From Gammaproteobacteria bacterium (GTDB lineage: Bacteria > Pseudomonadota > Gammaproteobacteria > Steroidobacterales > XN24): a DNA stretch of 64,000 nt. The notes below the pieces were generated by a model, which worked only from the letters and a program-made list of their open reading frames with translations, made no database searches and had not been told where the DNA came from. Shown here piece after piece: positions 47,654-56,929 of this stretch. The translations under genes were made by a program, and so were the position numbers. The stretch covers positions 1-64,000 of the forward strand of contig JAHEFR010000002.1 in assembly GCA_024640085.1 (NCBI GenBank), read 5' to 3'. The number at the start of each line of letters is the position of its first letter. Position 1 is the first letter of the stretch.

Positions 47654-49069
47654 GTGCTGACGAACTGGCATGCGGTGGCGGCCGGGCTGGCGACCCTGAC
47701 CGGATTCATTTCGGCGGGCCACGCGCTGCTCAACAAGCGTGACCCCAGGGCTGCCATCGGGTGGTGCGCCATATGTCTCATGGTCCCGGTCCTGGGCGCC
47801 ATCCTGTATGTGCTGTTTGGCATCAACCGGGTCAGAAGCCGGGCCCGGCGGATGCGTCTGCAGGAACGGAACATCCCTTCCGGGCCGGAGGAAGTGGGCC
47901 GGGGCGAGCCGGGCGACGTCCCGGGCCACCTGGCCGAACTGTCCAGGCTCTCCGGCTCCCTGCAGCACTGGCCCCTGACCGAGCGCAACGCCGTCGGCAT
48001 CCTCCACAACGGCGAGAACGCCTATCCCCGCATGCTGTCCGACATCGACGGCGCACGCAGCCGGATCAGCCTGAGCACATACATTTTCGACTCGGACGAG
48101 ACCGGAAGGCGTTTCATCGATGCCCTGGCCGCTGCTTGCGCCCGCGGTGTCGATGTGAGGGTCCTGATCGACGGCGTCGGCGAATTCTATTCCTGGCCCA
48201 GGGCAAGACGGCTGCTGCGCAAACGCGGGGTACCGGCAAGGCGGTTCGCGCCGCCGACCCTCTTCCCACCCGCAATCCGCTTCAATCTCCGCAACCACCG
48301 CAAGATCCTCGTGGTGGACGGTGCCGTCGGGTTCGCCGGCGGGATGAACATCGGTGACCGTCATCTCGCGGGGCGGCCCCGCGGCCACCGCTCCCTGGAC
48401 ATCCATTTCAGATTCGCCGGCCCCGTAGCGGCACAGCTCGAGCGAGCCTTCTTCGAGGACTGGGACCGCGCCGGGGGGGTATGTCCCGACGCGCCCCTCC
48501 CCGTTCAGCCAGGATCCGGTCCGGCGGCCAGCCGCGTCCTGACAGACGGTCCGGGGGAGGACATGGACAAGCTGACCATCGTGCTCAGCGGCGCCGTATC
48601 CGTGGCGCGAAAGCGGGTGCTGGTGATGACCCCCTATTTCCTGCCCCCCAGGGAACTGATCGGAGCAATGGTGTCGGCGGCACTGCGCGGCGTGGACGTC
48701 TCGGTGATCCTGCCGGAGAAGAGCAACCTGCCCTATGTACACTGGGCGACGAGGAACATGCTCTGGGAGCTGTTGAGATGGGGCGTGAAGGTCTATTACC
48801 AGCCGGGGGATTTCAATCACACGAAGGTGTTCATCGTCGACGACAATTATGTGCAGGTGGGCTCCGCCAACCTGGACCCTCGCAGCCTGCGTCTGAACTT
48901 CGAACTGGCGGTGGAGGTCTTCGATCCCGGATTCGCCGGCCAGCTGATCGACCATTGCCTCGAGACGCGGAACAGGTCCCGCGAGATCACCCTGGAGGAA
49001 GTGGACGGGCGTCCCCTGCCACAGCGATTCCGGGATGCTCTGGCATGGCTGTTCTCGCCGTATCTCTGA
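47654..49069 (+). CDS. cls: Cardiolipin synthase-like phospholipase D
   Basis: Predicted 471 residues. Two N-terminal helices (LATLTGFISAGHALL and AAIGWCAICLMVPVLGAILYVLFG), then two HKD sites: HRKILVVDGAVGFAGGMNIGD and HTKVFIVDDNYVQVGSANLDPRS. It joins phosphatidylglycerols to make cardiolipin. GTG start; GGGGGTGGT lies before it. The next gene starts 5 nt later, so the pair is likely co-transcribed. Confidence 0.93.
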   Translation: MLTNWHAVAAGLATLTGFISAGHALLNKRDPRAAIGWCAICLMVPVLGAILYVLFGINRVRSRARRMRLQERNIPSGPEEVGRGEPGDVPGHLAELSRLSGSLQHWPLTERNAVGILHNGENAYPRMLSDIDGARSRISLSTYIFDSDETGRRFIDALAAACARGVDVRVLIDGVGEFYSWPRARRLLRKRGVPARRFAPPTLFPPAIRFNLRNHRKILVVDGAVGFAGGMNIGDRHLAGRPRGHRSLDIHFRFAGPVAAQLERAFFEDWDRAGGVCPDAPLPVQPGSGPAASRVLTDGPGEDMDKLTIVLSGAVSVARKRVLVMTPYFLPPRELIGAMVSAALRGVDVSVILPEKSNLPYVHWATRNMLWELLRWGVKVYYQPGDFNHTKVFIVDDNYVQVGSANLDPRSLRLNFELAVEVFDPGFAGQLIDHCLETRNRSREITLEEVDGRPLPQRFRDALAWLFSPYL

Positions 49070-49073
49070 AAGC

Positions 49074-50981
49074 ATGACCGCGCCGATCCCGACCTCCATC
49101 GAGAAGAAATCAGACCAGTTTCCGCTGCTGCTCCAGCGCCGGCTGGGGCCGCTGTGGATATGCCAGCTTGCAAACTCCCTCAACAACCAGTTCCTCAGAG
49201 CCGCCACCCTGTGGATTTTGAGCGGGAAGGCCTATGCCGTCCTCGGCGTGCCGTCGGTCCGCACCGCGACCGTCGCCCTGTTTGTGGTGCCGGCCATCCT
49301 CTTTGCGGCCATCGCCGGCCAGATCGTGGATCGCCTGGATCGCGCCCGGGCGGTCGTCATCGCCCAGAGCGTTGGGCTTCTGGCTTCCGTCGGCGCCATC
49401 TACGGGCTGGCGACGGGTCACGGCTCCCTGGTGCTGGCATGCGTGGCGGCCGCGGGGCTGCAGTCGACCCTGTTTGCGCCAGCTCAAGGTGCACTGCTAC
49501 GCCAGCACCTGGGCGATACGGAACTGACCCCGGGCAACGGACTGATGACGGCGGGCCGGCAGATCGCAATGCTGCTCAGCATGCTCCTGTTGATGGCCAC
49601 CATGGACGGCCCGTCCGCGAGCGGCATACTGATCCCGGCACTGGCGGCCTCGGCCGTCGTCGGCTGGGCGGCGGCCTTCGGCATCCCCACCTCGCCGGCG
49701 CCGTGCCCCGGCCTGAGGATATCGTGGAACCCGGTGGGCGCCCTGCGCGTGACGATCCTGGCGGCGCTGGCTGATCGCAACGTCTATCTCGCCATCCTCG
49801 GCGTGAGCTGGTTCTGGTTTACTCACCTGGTCTTCCTCGTCAATCTCCCCGCGTATGCCACAGAAGTGATCGGGGCGAGCGCGCTGGCCCTGACGGTGCT
49901 GGTGATGACCCCGTTGATGGGTCTCATGCTCGGAGCATTGCTTTGTCAGCCCGCGTCCGGTCGGCGGGTGGAACTCGGCCTGGTGCCACTGGGCGCCCTC
50001 GGCATGGCCCTGGCAGGCATGGGCTTCTATATCAACTCCCCCGAAGCAGCACCCACAAGCGCCAGGTCTCTGTCGGAACTGCTCGGTTCGGCTACCTACC
50101 TCCGCTGTCTTTTCGACCTCGCCCTCTTCGGCCTCGCCGCCGGTCTTTATGTCGTCCCTCTGTACGCCCTTATCCAGCAGATCGCGCCGCGCGAACGTCT
50201 GGGCCGGGTGCTCGGGGGCATGATGCTCTACAGTCTGCTCTTCGTGACCCTGGCTCTCGGCGGGGCCCAGTGGCTGAGATCCGAGGGGCTGTCGGTCCAC
50301 GCCGTGGTCCTGATGGCAGTGCTGCTACAGTTCAGCGTCTCCATCTACATCTTCCTGCTGCTGCCCGAGTTCCTACTGCGACTGCTTATGTGGTTACTGG
50401 TGCACACCTTCTATCGCGTGAACGCCAGCGGTTTGGAGCGGGTCCCTCCCGAGGGACCGGTGATCCTCGTCTGCAACCACGTCAGCTACCTGGACGCCCT
50501 GGTCATCGGGGCCATGATTCGCCGTCCGGTCCGCTTCGTGATGCACCGCTACATTTTCAAGATTCCGATCATGCGGACCGTGTTCCGGCTGGCAAAGGCC
50601 ATCCCCATCGTGTCGGGAAAGAAGGATCCCGAGGGACTCCGGTTCGCCCTCGACCAGGTGTCGCGCGAGTTGTCAGCCGGCCGCGTAGTGGCGGTATTCC
50701 CGGAGGGCATGCTCACCCGTGACGGCGATATCGGCGTCTTTCGGTCCGGCATCGAGCGCATGGTGGAAAGGAATCCGGTGCCGGTCATACCGATGGCCCT
50801 CCAGGGTCTCTGGGGCAGTTTCTACAGTTTCGCGGAGGGCGAGCCCATGGCCCACTGGCCCAGGTTCCGGCCCAGGTGGTCGAGGATCGGGCTGCACATC
50901 GGAGAGCCGATTCCGCCCGGGGACGTCACTGCGGATCTGTTGAGGGAGCGGGTCGCGGCGCTCCGGGGTCCCTTTCGCTGA
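49074..50981 (+). CDS. MFS transporter fused to PlsC-type acyltransferase
   Basis: Predicted 635 residues. Residues 1-420 are an MFS permease like LplT (QLANSLNNQFLRAATLW, 12 helices). Residues 440-635 are a PlsC domain with NHVSYLDALV (HX4D) and FPEGMLTRDG. It lacks the acyl-ACP synthetase domain of Aas. It could flip lysophospholipid and re-acylate it, next to cardiolipin synthase. ATG 49074 chosen (start after cls stop). Its 3' end overlaps the convergent gene by 56 nt. Confidence 0.88.
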   Translation: MTAPIPTSIEKKSDQFPLLLQRRLGPLWICQLANSLNNQFLRAATLWILSGKAYAVLGVPSVRTATVALFVVPAILFAAIAGQIVDRLDRARAVVIAQSVGLLASVGAIYGLATGHGSLVLACVAAAGLQSTLFAPAQGALLRQHLGDTELTPGNGLMTAGRQIAMLLSMLLLMATMDGPSASGILIPALAASAVVGWAAAFGIPTSPAPCPGLRISWNPVGALRVTILAALADRNVYLAILGVSWFWFTHLVFLVNLPAYATEVIGASALALTVLVMTPLMGLMLGALLCQPASGRRVELGLVPLGALGMALAGMGFYINSPEAAPTSARSLSELLGSATYLRCLFDLALFGLAAGLYVVPLYALIQQIAPRERLGRVLGGMMLYSLLFVTLALGGAQWLRSEGLSVHAVVLMAVLLQFSVSIYIFLLLPEFLLRLLMWLLVHTFYRVNASGLERVPPEGPVILVCNHVSYLDALVIGAMIRRPVRFVMHRYIFKIPIMRTVFRLAKAIPIVSGKKDPEGLRFALDQVSRELSAGRVVAVFPEGMLTRDGDIGVFRSGIERMVERNPVPVIPMALQGLWGSFYSFAEGEPMAHWPRFRPRWSRIGLHIGEPIPPGDVTADLLRERVAALRGPFR

Positions 50982-53900
50982 TCGCTCCGGGTACGGCCGG
51001 GGGCGCCCGACCGTCTTCGCCCGTCGTGTCGGGCGGCACGTCCCGGGCCGGCGGTCCGGACGCCACTTTCACCGGTACCAGCTCACCAGTGGCGTCATAC
51101 CTGAGTTTCAGGACATCCAGCCATCGAGCCTCGGCGCCGGGATCCGGCTCGCCCGGTGGGTCCCCTCGCCTGTCGAGTTCGAGTTGGACAATCCGGTGGC
51201 CGCCCGAATCCACGGCCAGCATCCTCACCACGCCGTCAACGTCGGCCGGGACGCGCCAGGCGTCCGGCGGAACCGCTCCCGGCAACAGGAAGCTTCCGCT
51301 GATCTCGGGTCTTTCGTCTGTGGAAATCCGGTGGAGCCACTCCCCGGTCTGCACGAACAAGGCATCCTCTCCGCCGAAAGCCATGTCCAGCAGCCAGCCG
51401 TTGATCTGAACGACTTTCCTGCCTCCGATAGGCTTCAGCGTGTCCCACAGGTAAACCTGCCCGCCGGCCGTGCCGCCGGCGACCCGACGCCCGTCCCGAC
51501 TCACCGCGACAGCGGCGACCGGTCCCGGCATGTTGCCGGACCAGACCTGCGCGCCGCCGGACGGCTCCCAGGCCTGAACTAGGCCTTCGCCGGAGGCCGT
51601 GTAAGCCAGCTCCCCGTCCCCGCTGAAAGCTACCCTGACCACACGCCGGCCCGGCCCAAGCAATGGCCCGGCCTCTCCGGTGATCCCATCCCACAGGCGC
51701 GCCCCGAGTTCCCCGCCCGTGAGGATCCGGCTGTTGTCCGGCGCCACCGCCACGGAGCGGACCCGGCCGCTACCATGATGGAATCGTTCACCGACCACGG
51801 TCGCTGACTCGGAATCCCACAGAAGTACGCTGCCGTCGGCGCCGACGCTGGCCAGGCGGCTGCCGTCGGGACTGTAGGCCAGGGCGGTGATGGCGCCGGC
51901 ATGGCTGACCGGCGTCTCCCGGGATGCGCTCCAGGGAGTTCCCCGATCGAGGAAACGCACCGAACCATCCAGCCCCCCCACGGCGATCTGGTCACTGGCC
52001 GGATTGAGAGAGAAAACCTGGGCGACCGCGATTCCAGGATCGGCAAGCGTCTCCGGATACCGGGTCACCGCCATCTCCCAGATCCGAGCCATGGACCCAC
52101 CGCGTCCGGTCACCAGCCGCGAGTTCAGAGCCCCGAAGGCTCGGGAAACAGGCTTGCCCCAGGCGGTCTCGGATTCCTCCGATCGCCAGTCACCGGAATG
52201 GCGCAGAGGCGGCGACGCCGGCATCCCCGATGGCAGGGACAGAACCTCGAAGCTGCGGCCCAGGCCCCGCATCAGCAACAGGCCGCCGTCACTGGAGAAA
52301 GTCAGGGAAAGAGGATCCCAGGTCTGCCGGGACACCAGCAGCCTGGCCTCGACGTCGCCCTCCCGGATCGACCAGACCCGGATGGTGTTGTCGTTCTCGA
52401 CGGTCGCCAGCCAGCGTCCGGAGGGATCGAAGATCATGCGGCTCACCGGCTGGTCATGGACCAATTGGGCCGTCAACACGGCCTCGGGGGATGTCCAGAC
52501 CTCCACCACGTTGTTGGCGCTCAGGGTGGCCACCATCCGCCCATCCGGCCCCAGTGCCATGGCGCGGATTTCACCAGTGACGCCGATCGATTTCCATTCC
52601 TGCCCCACCACCAGGTCTACCAGGCGGACGGTGCTGTTGCCGTCGCTCCGGCCCTCGGCGACCGCCAACACGCTGCCGGTGGCGGACAGTGTCGGCTGAG
52701 TGAGGAAACCGCTCTCGGAATCGAGGGACAGCAACTCCTGGCCCGCGGCCGCGCGCCAGACGCTCAGATGTCCGGGAGGACCCATTCGCCCGGTCACCAG
52801 GTACTGACCCTCGGCATCGAACGCCACGATCCTCGGCCCGGCCTCCACCGGAATTCGCGCCGTCACGGCACCTGTACCGGTATCCCAGACCTGCAGGAAG
52901 CCCCTGCTTTCGGTGTTGGAACTGACCGCGGCCGCCCGCCTCCCGTCGGGACTCAACACCACCTCGACCTGAGACGTTGGCTTTGGATCCGGCAACAGTA
53001 TGGGGTTCCCGGGGGAGTCCTCTGCCACATGAGCCTGATTGCCGGAGAGGGACAGCATCCAGCCATCCAGGAAGCCTGCAGTACCGGTCACCTGGTCCTC
53101 CAGCTCGAGGGTCCAGGTCCCCTGAATCTTCTCCTTGCGAAGCGACCGCAGATCAGGATGGCTGGTCTCGTCCAGAACATACGGGGCGTCAGGCTCTCGC
53201 TCCTGCCGCCTGATCGGCAGCACGACGACCTTGCCCGAAGGCGCAGACAGGCGCATTTCCAGGTCCGTCGCCTGAGGATGGCGGAGCCTGACCTCCAGCT
53301 TTGCCGCCCGGGCAGTCCCGCTCGCCTCCATATTGACCTGGCGCCGGACCGTGGCGAACTCCTCCGCCAGGGCTGGGAACCCTCCGGCGACACCCATCGG
53401 CACGCCGCGTTCCGCGTCCCAGGACTGAACAACGTGGCCCTCGGTCAGCGTCACTACCTGGCGACCGGCGGCGTCGATTCCGAGACCGTCGATGCGGGCG
53501 CCGGCCCGGATACCGGTCACCAGCAGTGGATAATCCTCGCCGATCAGCGCGCGTATCGCGCCCCCGGCTCCCGGCGCACCCATGTCGGCGGCGCGCAGCT
53601 GATACACCAGGGCCTGATCACGCAGTTCCTCGGCCGCCGCGGCAGCCGATTCCCGGATCCAGAATTCGCCGAGCAATTCGTCGGCACGCTGCGCCTCGCC
53701 GTGCAGGGCGCGCAATTCCACGTCTGTCGCCAGGGCATCGTCCCAGCTGTCTGCCGCCAGGCTCCGCCCTTCCAGCACGCGGGCATACAGCCGGTCCGCC
53801 TGTTTGCCGAACCCTGGCAGACGACGGAGATCCAGGTACGCCTCCTGGACTTCGCTGAACTCCATCCCGGGTCGCGTCAGCGTCTTCACGTAACCCTTGG

Positions 53901-55131
53901 GCAGGACCTGGCTGTACCAGTAAGGCAGTCCGATGGAAACGGCGATGATTGCGGCCCATCGTCCGGCGCCCCGCCAGTTGAACGGGACCGCGTGACGGAC
54001 CCAGCGCGAAGTGAAAACCTCGGTGTAGATGCGATTACGGGGCTGGAGCAGTCCACTGACGCCGATGGCCGCGAGACCCAGGATACGCAGCCATTCGTGC
54101 TCGGGCTGGTGTCGGTCGTATCGAATCTTGCGGCCTTTCCTTACCCTTCGGTACAACCTGAGCGCGCTGTGGGCAAGTGCGCCGCCGACCTCCGCCCATG
54201 CCCGGATGCGTCTCAGGTTGGGCTCGTTCTGGGGCGCATTGCCGAGGAAGAAGCGGCTGGAGACGAACTCGTCCACATCCTGGTCGGAACGGACCGAGCC
54301 CGGACTGCGCGCCATGGCGCGACAGAGCTTCTGGGTCAGGTAGGGTTGTCCTCCGGTCCAGTAAAATACACGGTACAGAGCCCGCTCCGCGTCGCCGGGT
54401 TCGAGACCGATCTCGCGGCAGAGGGGCCTCGCCTCCTCGAACGTGAAATCGGGCAGGTCAATTCGCCGCCCGATCTCCAGCGTAGCCGTGCCGGATTTGG
54501 CTCCAGGATCTCCGGGCATCACGGTGCCGAACAAGGCAAAACTCAGACGCTCGTATTCCGGCTCCGATGCCCGCGCATCATGGCTGGCGTGAACGGCGTG
54601 GAAGAGATCGGCGGCGTAATCCAGATCAGTCACGGCTTCGACTTCGTCCAGGAGGATGACCACGGCTGATCGGGTATGCCCCAGGACGACTTCCCAGAAG
54701 AACTCGCTGATACGTTGCACGGGCGACAGCGGTTTCTTCTCCTGCCACCAGTGCTGCAGGTCCACCGACAGGCGCAGGTCGCGAACGATCCGATACGCGA
54801 TGCCGTAATACCACCGCCCTGCATCGGCATCGCGGTCCCTGCCGATGGTCTGGGAAAGGTCCACCACCGCAGTGAGGAAGCCCTGCCGCCTCAGCTCACG
54901 GGCGGTCCTTCCCACCAGGCTGGATTTCCCGGTCTGTGGCGGAGCGAAAACATGGCAATACTCGCCTTCCCGGAGCTTCTCCACCAGCTGAGTATCGGCG
55001 GTCCGCTCCACGTAGCATCCCCGCCGTGGCAGGACCGGGCCGCCGACCACATAGAAGCTCTCGCCACGTTCCTCTTGCGGCGGCCGCAACTCGGTCACTT
55101 TTTTTTCGGTGGGTCCTTCCAAGGGTTTCAT
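50926..55131 (-). CDS. AAA-like ATPase-TM-P domain-WD40 protein
   Basis: Predicted 1401 residues. Walker A APPQTGKSS (63-71) and Walker B VVILLDE (157-163) mark an AAA-like (AAA_35 type) domain covering about 40-330. One helix lies near 385-405 (AAIIAVSIGLPYWY) with basic residues before it, so the N-terminus is cytosolic and the rest outside. A proprotein-convertase P domain lies near 597-695 (AKLEVRLRHPQATDLEMRLSAP, GTWTLELEDQVTG). From 700 to 1370 WD40 repeats fill the chain (ALAYSPDGSRLASVGADGSV and others). The start is ATG 55131; the open frame runs to 55485 over the divergent kinase. Role unknown. Confidence 0.8.
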   Translation of the reverse strand: MKPLEGPTEKKVTELRPPQEERGESFYVVGGPVLPRRGCYVERTADTQLVEKLREGEYCHVFAPPQTGKSSLVGRTARELRRQGFLTAVVDLSQTIGRDRDADAGRWYYGIAYRIVRDLRLSVDLQHWWQEKKPLSPVQRISEFFWEVVLGHTRSAVVILLDEVEAVTDLDYAADLFHAVHASHDARASEPEYERLSFALFGTVMPGDPGAKSGTATLEIGRRIDLPDFTFEEARPLCREIGLEPGDAERALYRVFYWTGGQPYLTQKLCRAMARSPGSVRSDQDVDEFVSSRFFLGNAPQNEPNLRRIRAWAEVGGALAHSALRLYRRVRKGRKIRYDRHQPEHEWLRILGLAAIGVSGLLQPRNRIYTEVFTSRWVRHAVPFNWRGAGRWAAIIAVSIGLPYWYSQVLPKGYVKTLTRPGMEFSEVQEAYLDLRRLPGFGKQADRLYARVLEGRSLAADSWDDALATDVELRALHGEAQRADELLGEFWIRESAAAAAEELRDQALVYQLRAADMGAPGAGGAIRALIGEDYPLLVTGIRAGARIDGLGIDAAGRQVVTLTEGHVVQSWDAERGVPMGVAGGFPALAEEFATVRRQVNMEASGTARAAKLEVRLRHPQATDLEMRLSAPSGKVVVLPIRRQEREPDAPYVLDETSHPDLRSLRKEKIQGTWTLELEDQVTGTAGFLDGWMLSLSGNQAHVAEDSPGNPILLPDPKPTSQVEVVLSPDGRRAAAVSSNTESRGFLQVWDTGTGAVTARIPVEAGPRIVAFDAEGQYLVTGRMGPPGHLSVWRAAAGQELLSLDSESGFLTQPTLSATGSVLAVAEGRSDGNSTVRLVDLVVGQEWKSIGVTGEIRAMALGPDGRMVATLSANNVVEVWTSPEAVLTAQLVHDQPVSRMIFDPSGRWLATVENDNTIRVWSIREGDVEARLLVSRQTWDPLSLTFSSDGGLLLMRGLGRSFEVLSLPSGMPASPPLRHSGDWRSEESETAWGKPVSRAFGALNSRLVTGRGGSMARIWEMAVTRYPETLADPGIAVAQVFSLNPASDQIAVGGLDGSVRFLDRGTPWSASRETPVSHAGAITALAYSPDGSRLASVGADGSVLLWDSESATVVGERFHHGSGRVRSVAVAPDNSRILTGGELGARLWDGITGEAGPLLGPGRRVVRVAFSGDGELAYTASGEGLVQAWEPSGGAQVWSGNMPGPVAAVAVSRDGRRVAGGTAGGQVYLWDTLKPIGGRKVVQINGWLLDMAFGGEDALFVQTGEWLHRISTDERPEISGSFLLPGAVPPDAWRVPADVDGVVRMLAVDSGGHRIVQLELDRRGDPPGEPDPGAEARWLDVLKLRYDATGELVPVKVASGPPARDVPPDTTGEDGRAPPAVPGAISERDPGAPRPAPSTDPQ

Positions 55132-55243
55132 CCAGCCGCCGTCAACCCGATTCTCCCCCAAACAGCCCTGCCGGCGCCAGACGGGCCGCGGGCGGTAGTA
55201 CACTGGCCCGATCCACCAGCGGCCCGTCAGGATCCGAGCCCCG

Positions 55244-55924
55244 ATGACCGATCGCCCCGAAGAGCTCCCCGTCGAACGGCTGCTGAAGCAGGATCTGTTC
55301 GGACGAATCGAGCTCGTGCAGGCGCCGGGGGACGACGGGGGACTTGCCGTCCGCAGAGATACACGCAGTGCCCGTTGGTGGACCCGCCCCGTCGCCCGTC
55401 GCCTGGCGGCTCGGGAAGCGCGGGCCCTGCATCGCCTGGCGGGATTCGACGGGGTGCCGCAACTGATCTCCTGGCGGGACGGCATATTGGTCAGGACTTG
55501 GATGGACGGTCTCCCGATGCAGATCGCCCGACCCCGGGACCCAGCCTATTTCGCCATGGCCTCTGCCCTGGTTCGGCGGCTCCACGCCGCCGGTGTCGTC
55601 CACAACGATCTTGCCAAGGAACCCAACTGGCTGGTCGGGGATGACGGCCGACCCGGGCTCATCGATTTCCAGCTGGCCTGGGCTCCACGCTGGCGTGGCA
55701 GGTTGTTCCGGGCCCTGGGGCGGGAAGACGTGCGACATACCCTCAAGCACAAGCGTTATTACTGCCCGGAGAACCTGACCCGAAGAGAACGAGCCATCCT
55801 CGCCCGGCCCGGGCCGCTGTCTGCGGCGTGGATGAACTTCGGCAAACCTGTGTATCTGTTCGTCACGCGCAGGCTGCTTCGCTGGAGCGACCGCGAGGGG
55901 GCCGGTGACCGAAATTTCCGCTGA
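55244..55924 (+). CDS. RIO-like protein kinase
   Basis: Predicted 226 residues. A short kinase: AAREARALHRLAGFDGVPQL, catalytic loop VVHNDLAKEPNWLV and metal site LIDFQLAW (DFQ instead of DFG). No N-terminal P loop Lys is clear. Substrate unknown; small kinases of this type act on lipid A Kdo or proteins. Divergent from the large AAA-WD40 gene. ATG start with a weak AGGAT. Confidence 0.85.
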   Translation: MTDRPEELPVERLLKQDLFGRIELVQAPGDDGGLAVRRDTRSARWWTRPVARRLAAREARALHRLAGFDGVPQLISWRDGILVRTWMDGLPMQIARPRDPAYFAMASALVRRLHAAGVVHNDLAKEPNWLVGDDGRPGLIDFQLAWAPRWRGRLFRALGREDVRHTLKHKRYYCPENLTRRERAILARPGPLSAAWMNFGKPVYLFVTRRLLRWSDREGAGDRNFR

Positions 55925-56081
55925 CCCTTGCCGCCGGGGCGCCACCGGAGCTATGGTCCGCCTCTTCCAGCGAACAGAATGATCGTCCATGGAGATCTGC
56001 CACCCACATAATCGCCGGGCGGGATCCGCACCCGCGCCACGACCGTTCGGACTGAGACTGAGCCTTCCGGACGGTGACCCG

Positions 56082-56249
56082 ATGAGGAAACTGATCGGAG
56101 ATGACTGGCATCAGTTCCAGTGGTTCGAAAGCGAGCAGGAGCGCGATGCAAAGGTCGCGGAACTTACAGGCCGATTTGCGTACTACAGGAAAGGGGATCG
56201 TCCGACCTTCCTCATCGAACGGGTGGAGGGCATGGAGGAAACCGAATGA
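56082..56249 (+). CDS. Small protein of unknown function
   Basis: Predicted 55 residues. MRKLIGDDWHQFQWFESEQERDAK, then YRKGDRPTFLIERVEG. No family known. The frame continues upstream to ATG 55989, but that part looks non-coding. Stop and next ATG overlap (ATGA), which supports the gene and frame. Confidence 0.6.
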   Translation: MRKLIGDDWHQFQWFESEQERDAKVAELTGRFAYYRKGDRPTFLIERVEGMEETE

Positions 56250-56476
56250 AAGATAGCGAAGCGGGGCTCGGGAAGGCGGAGCCGAAATGCCCGGATTGCG
56301 GCGTCGTCGGCACCGATCACCTCGTGGCCACCGACAGCGGCGAGAGATCCCGTGACGGCAAGTCCTGGTTCAACATCGTGCACTGCGACAGTTGCGGCCA
56401 TGTTTACGGCGTGTTCGCCAAACATGTGTTCGGCCCGAGGGGCGGCCCCCAGCTCGTAGTCCGGGAACGCGGCTGA
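56246..56476 (+). CDS. Small zinc-ribbon protein
   Basis: Predicted 76 residues. Two CxxC knuckles, CPDCG and CDSCG, 33 residues apart, form a zinc ribbon; GHVYGVFAKHVFGP follows. Target unknown. ATGA overlap with the previous gene fixes the start; the next gene begins 3 nt later. Confidence 0.75.
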   Translation: MKDSEAGLGKAEPKCPDCGVVGTDHLVATDSGERSRDGKSWFNIVHCDSCGHVYGVFAKHVFGPRGGPQLVVRERG

Positions 56477-56479
56477 TCC

Positions 56480-56929
56480 ATGTGTTCAGGCGGTGTCCTG
56501 GCTGAATTCCGGCGACAACACCCGGTCACCCGGGACATCCCGGTCGCCTGGGCCGACATGGACGCATTCGGTCACGTCAACAACGCCGTGTACCTCCGGT
56601 ATTTCGAAACCGCAAGGATCGCGTTGTTCGAGCAGGTGGGCTTTGCGGATCGGACCGGGACCGGCGGCGTCGGACCCATCCTTGCGGCGACCGAATGCCG
56701 GTTCCGCATCCCGGTCAAATACCCGGACACGGTCACGGCCGCGACGTGGATCGAGGATGTCTCGAACGACCGGTTCCTCATGGGTTTCGCCGTATTCAGT
56801 CACGCCCACGACGGCATCGCCGCCGAGGGCACGGGCCGAATCGTGGCGTACGATTATGCCGCCTGGAAAAAGGCTGTCCTCGATAATGAAATCAGACAAC
56901 AGCTTGCGGCGCTCGGCCTGCGAAAGTAA
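56480..56929 (+). CDS. Acyl-CoA thioesterase (4HBT hot-dog fold)
   Basis: Predicted 149 residues. Motif PVAWADMDAFGHVNNAVYLRYFETARIALFEQ with the catalytic Asp is that of 4-hydroxybenzoyl-CoA thioesterase-like YbgC/FcbC proteins. It hydrolyses an acyl-CoA. Third gene of the small operon 56082-56929. Confidence 0.92.
   Translation: MCSGGVLAEFRRQHPVTRDIPVAWADMDAFGHVNNAVYLRYFETARIALFEQVGFADRTGTGGVGPILAATECRFRIPVKYPDTVTAATWIEDVSNDRFLMGFAVFSHAHDGIAAEGTGRIVAYDYAAWKKAVLDNEIRQQLAALGLRK

Follow-up and report, generated by a model that had tools for sequence, protein, structure and literature searches.

In Apaf-1, a switch is followed by a helical domain and two propellers, and a tripartite plan with a fused effector is common among STAND proteins, although it is not required of all of them. 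Excerpts of the literature describe MalT-type and Avs-type bacterial STAND proteins as intracellular switches to which a DNA-binding part or an N-terminal effector is fused (PMC10427625, PMC10907252), and show bacterial STAND proteins as widely filed under conflict systems (PMC7159879, PMC10907252), some of them near the membrane (PMC7159879, PMC8195603). One NACHT protein is predicted to be periplasmic, with a neighbouring S8 peptidase that has WD40 repeats (PMC10907252, excerpt). The parts available of two further papers report Planctomycetota kinases that combine a cytoplasmic enzyme, mostly a single helix, and a predicted periplasmic WD40 array (PMC11032199), and a frequent presence of kinases beside WD40 genes in Cyanobacteria and Planctomycetes (PMC5587647). 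Searches of open-licence papers listed no title or abstract opening that describes a P domain joined to a STAND or AAA_35 ATPase. Here we describe such a protein, encoded in a 64,000-nucleotide stretch of a gammaproteobacterial genome (contig JAHEFR010000002.1 of assembly GCA_024640085.1; the whole stretch is called the window below), in which a STAND ATPase, a predicted membrane helix, a P domain and two WD40 propellers are joined in 1401 residues.

The gene lies at 50926-55131 on the minus strand as an open reading frame (ORF) of 1401 residues plus stop, and translation bore out the position and length given for it in an initial annotation of this DNA. The same frame is open further upstream (1519 amino acids if counted from 55485); the ATG at 55131 is a sensible start, because similarity among relatives begins near residue 24. 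The architecture was confirmed by the agreement of profiles, two AlphaFold models (predicted local distance difference test [pLDDT] 88) and comparison with the PDB, and the ATPase, helix, P domain and WD40 repeats that the initial annotation had placed in one protein are all present by Pfam and AlphaFold. We interpret the protein, at a probability of about 0.6, as a bitopic inner-membrane receptor with a periplasmic sensor, a cytoplasmic STAND switch and an output in trans. Its parts are as follows.

50926..55131, minus strand: gene for the 1401-residue STAND, membrane helix, P domain and twin-propeller protein (ORF, Pfam, relatives)
53983..55062, minus strand: STAND nucleotide-binding, helical and winged-helix domains, residues 24-383 (Pfam AAA_35, AlphaFold, VIA-align)
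54919..54945, minus strand: Walker A, residues 63-71 (APPQTGKSS), with GK[ST] in 75/75 sequences covering the site
54643..54663, minus strand: Walker B, residues 157-163 (VVILLDE), with D162 in 75/75
54322..54363, minus strand: GxP motif (G261, P263) within residues 257-270 YWTGGQPYLTQKLC, with G and P in 78/79
53908..53976, minus strand: predicted membrane part (about residues 386-408) of the 34-residue helix 386-419 (hydropathy, AlphaFold, conservation)
53527..53859, minus strand: six-helix arm, residues ~425-535, predicted extracytoplasmic (both AlphaFold models)
53416..53523, minus strand: first propeller blade, residues 537-572 (four strands in the model)
53017..53367, minus strand: P domain, residues 589-705, between blades 1 and 2 (Pfam, relatives, model, Foldseek)
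52042..52989, minus strand: remainder of propeller 1, residues ~715-1030 (Pfam, model)
51169..52041, minus strand: propeller 2, residues 1031-1321 (VIA-align)

Pfam AAA_35 (PF14516) matches residues 38-272 at 78.7 bits (curated cut-off 27) and was found in 18/18 and 48/48 relatives scanned, the larger set at E <= 1e-3. In AlphaFold model 1, computed for residues 17-720 from an alignment of the window protein and relatives (pLDDT 88.3; predicted template modelling score [pTM] 0.56), residues ~25-383 align with 2qen at a VIA-align Z of 19.7 (root-mean-square deviation [rmsd] 4.3, 311 residues aligned); Z values for the STAND module are 19.2 with 2fna, 17.3 with the plant NLR RPP1 (309 residues), 16.2 with CED-4 and 15.0 with MalT (8bob). 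Foldseek matches include Apaf-1, Avs3, Avs4 and EfAvs5, and the ring-forming AAA+ proteins FtsH, HslU and ClpX stand lower in the same list. Four marks of a STAND protein are present, namely the P-loop, the Walker B aspartate, the GxP motif, which is a defining STAND feature, and a nucleotide-binding, helical and winged-helix fold, the last taken from the predicted model. Motif counts refer to 81 sequences less those whose reading frame misses the column. The residue that follows D162 is E in 51 of 75 sequences, R in 15, G in 4, D in 3 and Q in 2; it is acidic in 54/75, and the window protein itself has D-E. Profile, fold, Walker motifs and GxP together support the cytosolic STAND/AAA-like ATPase of the initial annotation. 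Within residues 17-720, AAA_35 and P_proprotein were the sole family matches; the scan of all 1401 residues covered the 25 best of 35 families.

In the AlphaFold model the hydrophobic stretch forms a long helix of its own after the winged-helix domain and is not buried in a soluble domain. Its outer end is strongly conserved, with Y406 kept in 81/81 sequences and L410-P411 in 80/81, and in these columns the 19-residue Kyte-Doolittle mean exceeds 1.6 in 77/81 sequences and 1.2 in 81/81. A whole-protein hydropathy scan at 1.6 gave one peak in 59/81 sequences, none in four (the window protein included) and two or three in 18; six of these 18 count the same helix twice, and 12 have an additional peak elsewhere, which maps to the ATPase or the propellers in the models of the window protein. 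The single helix that had been proposed near residue 395 thus corresponds to the helix at 386-419, but the count of one peak is not clean across the family. Of the two flanks, the N-terminal one carries the more positive net charge in 74/81 sequences, with equality in four and the reverse in three, as the positive-inside topology suggested at the outset would have it. Because ATP is cytoplasmic and the helix follows the ATPase, the arm, P domain and propellers are placed outside in this predicted fold and topology. A hint from an independent source is a Nostoc AAA_35-helix-WD40 relative that ends in a peptidoglycan amidase domain, such amidases being enzymes that work outside. The Planctomycetota kinases are a published precedent for WD40 repeats in the periplasm on a cytoplasmic signalling enzyme with a single helix (PMC11032199).

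AlphaFold model 2, computed for residues 405-1401 from an alignment with relatives, has a pLDDT of 88.2 and a pTM of 0.86. Pfam PF01483 (P_proprotein) matches residues 611-695 at 42.4 bits (curated cut-off 21), and the domain is present in 17/18 and 47/48 relatives scanned (the larger set at E <= 1e-3). AlphaFold gives residues 589-705 a beta domain of their own, predicted at high confidence, which coincides with the profile match and is in keeping with the P domain expected at residues 590-700. The Foldseek list includes, at E ~1e-4, furin and the serine protease of Aeromonas sobria, with an rmsd of 20-23 over 211-242 columns; because this rmsd is high and the aligned range is not shown, the P-domain assignment rests mainly on the profile. 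A four-stranded blade at residues 537-572 precedes the P domain, which implies that the P domain lies inside the first propeller and not ahead of it, as the initial annotation had ordered the two. WD40 (PF00400) matches at 106.5 bits (cut-off 27), and WD40 or propeller matches span residues ~720-1230. Propeller 2 aligns with 5yzv at Z 29.4 (rmsd 3.2, 275 aligned) and with the seven-bladed 7bie at Z 28.2. It ends near residue 1321, and residues 1366-1401 have a pLDDT below 50; the propellers, which had been assigned to residues 700-1400, thus stop short of the C-terminus. An S8 protease domain, the mark of a proprotein convertase, was found neither in residues 17-720 nor among the 25 best of the 35 families matched by the complete protein, and the rest of the protein is modelled as propeller.

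Conservation falls unevenly along the protein. In the 68 sequences longer than 1250 residues, mean pairwise identity is 0.51 in the STAND module, 0.47 in the helix region, 0.41 in the arm and 0.43 in the P domain, compared with 0.28 in blade 1, 0.33 in the rest of propeller 1 and 0.29 in propeller 2. Within the beta-structured ectodomain, conservation is highest in the P domain.

Judging from the fold, the bitopic receptor that we favour may work as follows. The N-terminal STAND module would bind ATP or ADP in the cytoplasm as a switch, and the single helix directly behind the winged-helix domain would cross the membrane. The periplasmic arm, P domain and two propellers would bind an envelope ligand or partner, and this binding would shift the arm and helix so that the STAND module opens or assembles. 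The nucleotide-bound, probably oligomeric form would then act on a partner encoded elsewhere; a partner in trans is proposed because no effector domain is fused. Candidate partners are a near-constant neighbouring protein of ~85 residues and, where present, a small kinase, and the neighbourhood suggests a task linked to the envelope or to phospholipids more than one in defence. The order of domains, the helix and the topology thus fit the outside sensor and inside ATPase of the initial annotation, and sensing itself is our deduction from the fold.

Among 59 genomes searched, the source genome included, 31 had a match at E < 1e-100 and 37 had any match; because of the 31, the architecture is not a matter of chance. 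In 177 genomes drawn from the source's order, 87 carry the ATPase, nearly always as a single copy; five of these genomes gave two or three match rows, spread over distinct parts of the query. Of 369 genomes of the class, four matched at E <= 1e-20; three of them belong to the order and the fourth has only a partial match to the ATPase, so that outside the order the protein is nearly absent from the class. A named-genome scan, in which the best 80 of 506 relatives were kept, returned record titles of metagenome-assembled Gammaproteobacteria or Proteobacteria, some Woeseiaceae, Woeseia, Chromatiales and Nevskiales, four Rhodospirillaceae or Rhodospirillales and one 'Bacterium MnTg04'. Alignment A1 comprised the window protein and 17 of 29 other loci, and alignments A2 and A3 the window protein with 47 and 42, respectively, of the best 80 loci. 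An AAA_35 scan of 200 genomes of the phylum was positive in four, the source genome and three others. These three differ when read by eye: one (L128, 1429-3735) has an asparaginase-like C-terminal half, and in the other two (L129, L130) no WD40 or P domain was apparent by eye, no profile search having been made. By sequence comparison, the full-length architecture appears so far confined to one gammaproteobacterial order.

The genes around the ATPase gene are the following.

55132..55243, no strand: divergent intergenic region of 112 bases between ATPase and kinase (ORF positions)
55244..55924, plus strand: RIO1-like small kinase, 226 amino acids, divergent optional neighbour (PF01163, 31.8 bits, cut-off 22)
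55989..56249, plus strand: unnamed conserved protein, 86 amino acids, near-constant divergent neighbour (hidden Markov model E 4.1e-33)
49035..50981, plus strand: MFS transporter fused to an acyltransferase, convergent (PF07690, PF01553)
47654..49069, plus strand: PLD-type gene (PF13091), which we take to be cardiolipin-synthase-like

The initial annotation named the kinase as the neighbour and overlooked the small protein, which is the steadier of the two. Counted at one place per genome, the small protein is found in 81/87 ATPase genomes, divergent at 98-1064 bases in 78 and on other contigs in three, and six lack it. It stands upstream on the opposite strand in 68 of 74 loci (43 with and 25 without the kinase); the kinase stands alone in two of the 74 and neither gene is found in four (6/80 loci were dropped for short upstream sequence, and distances were taken from stop-to-stop ORFs). 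The small protein occurs in 144/177 genomes of the order and in 38/369 genomes of the class, four of these in the order. We conclude that its gene is more widespread than that of the ATPase, and that the two are neighbours whenever they share a contig. Four members, the window's included, matched no Pfam or NCBIfam family above cut-off, and one member gave a sub-threshold Dicer_dimer match. Eleven aligned members share invariant G, R, L, D, W, W, R, R, D and P residues. A short ORF at 56120-56473 on the plus strand, with zinc-ribbon-like CPDC...HCDSC cysteines and ahead of a thioesterase gene, overlaps the end of the small-protein gene in another frame, as called by script.

The kinase proved a real and divergent neighbour but an optional one, present in 44/87 ATPase genomes. 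It scores under the curated cut-offs of PRK12274 (214 bits, cut-off 372) and PRK09188 (248, cut-off 490) and is by this test a relative and not a member of these families; its HND...N and D.Q motifs are invariant in 48 sequences. It lies divergent and directly upstream of the ATPase in 43/76 loci; in three more (L054, L056, L060) it lies 613-1125 bases from a start that was set too far in. Counting hits of at least 100 bits at one place per genome, we found the kinase in 63/177 genomes of the order, 44 of which also carry the ATPase, and in 44/44 the two are divergent neighbours with a hit-to-hit gap of 5-349 bases. Left out of this count were 28 weaker rows and second places in G532 (C105) and G430 (C35), none beside the ATPase; the G532 kinase is split in two pieces, and the piece adjoining the ATPase was taken. 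A Mantel test showed the kinase distances to be correlated with those of the ATPase (r 0.81, n=41, 0/999 permutations), and Fisher tests for linkage of the ATPase to the kinase and to the small protein gave p < 1e-4 with common descent ignored. We gave up the kinase as the partner once the ATPase genomes without it had been counted and the small protein had emerged as the steadier neighbour. The neighbours were followed by targeted searches, as BLAST clustering of flanking ORFs was swamped by GC-rich shadow ORFs. No sigma-70-like site came up when 50700-56600 was scanned for promoters, a result of little weight.

Several observations count against the bitopic receptor with an output in trans. 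The helix of the window protein is weakly hydrophobic, its best 19-residue mean of 1.23 being the lowest of 81, and a further hydrophobic peak lies outside the helix region in 12/81 sequences. The arrangement across the membrane is uncertain because model 1 has a low pTM. An acidic residue is missing after the Walker B aspartate in 21/75 sequences. No fused effector domain was found in the Pfam scans described above, and only ~24 residues precede the nucleotide-binding domain. As to partners, the kinase is absent from 43/87 ATPase genomes and the small protein is also present in 63/90 genomes of the order without the ATPase, which implies that neither neighbour is a dedicated partner. Moreover, the linkage and Mantel figures are uncorrected for common descent, and gene order is generally conserved in these genomes.

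The rival that survives best, which we consider unlikely, is an ATP-driven assembly or scaffold factor, in which the ATPase would power or time periplasmic tasks such as the assembly of lipids or of outer-membrane proteins and the propellers would serve as docking platforms and not as sensors. It draws on the neighbourhood. The MFS-acyltransferase fusion adjoins the ATPase, convergent, in 44/69 loci with enough sequence; in the window the two genes overlap tail-to-tail by 56 bases (50926-50981), and in several relatives by 22-29 bases. A patatin phospholipase stands beside the ATPase in L036 and a TonB-dependent receptor near it in L042. Eight kinase loci from genomes without the ATPase were also inspected, three (L112, L114, L116) by profile search and five by eye. 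Patatin phospholipases are nearby in L112 and L118; L111 and L114 have a thioesterase, as does L115 at a greater distance; in L113 and L117 none of patatin, thioesterase, decarboxylase or MFS-acyltransferase fusion was apparent by eye. In L116 (6151-9614) the kinase follows an MFS-acyltransferase fusion and a phosphatidylserine decarboxylase, which hints at a lipid-linked role of the kinase family. The constant chromosomal place of the ATPase and the ring-forming AAA+ proteins lower in the Foldseek list are also consistent with a scaffold factor. However, the envelope and phospholipid hint is weak because genes in these genomes tend to keep their order anyway; proA- and proB-like genes, recognised by eye, also recur upstream. 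The protein folds like a STAND switch with a winged helix, and a switch would tolerate more readily than a motor that 21/75 sequences lack an acidic residue after D162.

A receptor for defence or conflict, which would detect molecules of phages or rivals in the periplasm and set off a harmful response in the manner of Avs proteins, is improbable. Its appeal lies in the STAND fold with its EfAvs5, Avs3 and Avs4 matches, in the variable propellers, in weak matches of the kinase to PADLOC PD-T4-6 (best E 1.7e-4), and in the habit, seen in the excerpts cited, of filing bacterial STAND proteins as conflict systems (PMC7159879, PMC10907252). Nevertheless, the scans revealed no fused effector of the kind that an Avs assignment calls for, the single PADLOC match of the ATPase is HEAT-ARM_XIII (E 1e-15) at residues 1042-1141, in the WD40 region, no match was found in phage records and none was confirmed in viral contigs, and the gene keeps a constant neighbourhood and nearly always one copy. 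These points together make a defence role less likely. Finally, the AAA_35 module could be no more than a degenerate anchor, with all the work left to the periplasmic propellers and P domain, as the 21/75 sequences whose Walker B aspartate is not followed by an acidic residue might suggest. This is very improbable, since no part is conserved as well as the STAND module (identity 0.51, compared with 0.28-0.43 for the parts past the helix) and 75/75 sequences keep Walker A.

A more specific form of the favoured receptor, which we put forward only tentatively and hold to be rather doubtful, is a transmembrane counterpart of Apaf-1 and the NLRs: a housekeeping receptor in which a membrane helix came to lie between the STAND switch and a sensor of two propellers, and which would use the P domain as its conserved ligand contact and report the state of the envelope or its phospholipids to an output in trans, namely the ~85-residue protein with or without the small kinase. 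If true, a STAND switch would serve everyday envelope signalling and not only intracellular or defence sensing, and the protein would be a natural case of an NLR-type switch coupled to a membrane helix. The conservation of the P domain points to where a ligand should be sought, and the ~85-residue neighbour is a concrete gene family open to testing.

The closest proteins outside the family are cyanobacterial and Chloroflexota AAA_35 proteins with 33-36% identity over residues ~20-386 (ten listed of 41 records). Like the window protein, those of Candidatus Chlorohelix (L131, L132), Nostoc (L134) and Acaryochloris (L135) have an N-terminal AAA_35-type ATPase, and in four of the six proteins examined the ATPase and WD40 parts are separated by a hydrophobic stretch above 1.6; in L133 the match sits near the C-terminus and is hence not comparable. 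Five of the six were scanned with Pfam (best 25 families each), and 0/6 matched the family's P-domain profile, a single home-made one. All six come from a plasmid collection, each with at least one further gene annotated as AAA-like in the stretch shown. The Nostoc plasmid protein (L134, 4971-9299) is an AAA_35-helix-WD40 protein with a C-terminal Amidase_3 domain. On these sequences, the AAA_35-helix-WD40 plan already exists in Cyanobacteria and Chloroflexota, so that the pairing is less unusual than the initial annotation claimed, and it is the P domain that sets the window family apart. Furin and the Aeromonas serine protease have the P-domain profile in common with the window protein; unlike proprotein convertases, the window protein showed no subtilisin-like protease domain in the scans above. 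The Planctomycetota kinases have a protein kinase where the window protein has a STAND ATPase, and the excerpt describing them makes no mention of a P domain (PMC11032199). MalT-type and Avs-type bacterial proteins share the STAND switch. Apaf-1, CED-4 and plant NLRs likewise have nucleotide-binding, helical and winged-helix domains. Compared with Apaf-1 and the NLRs, the window protein is without a CARD or other effector and instead has a predicted membrane helix between switch and sensor and a P domain in propeller 1.

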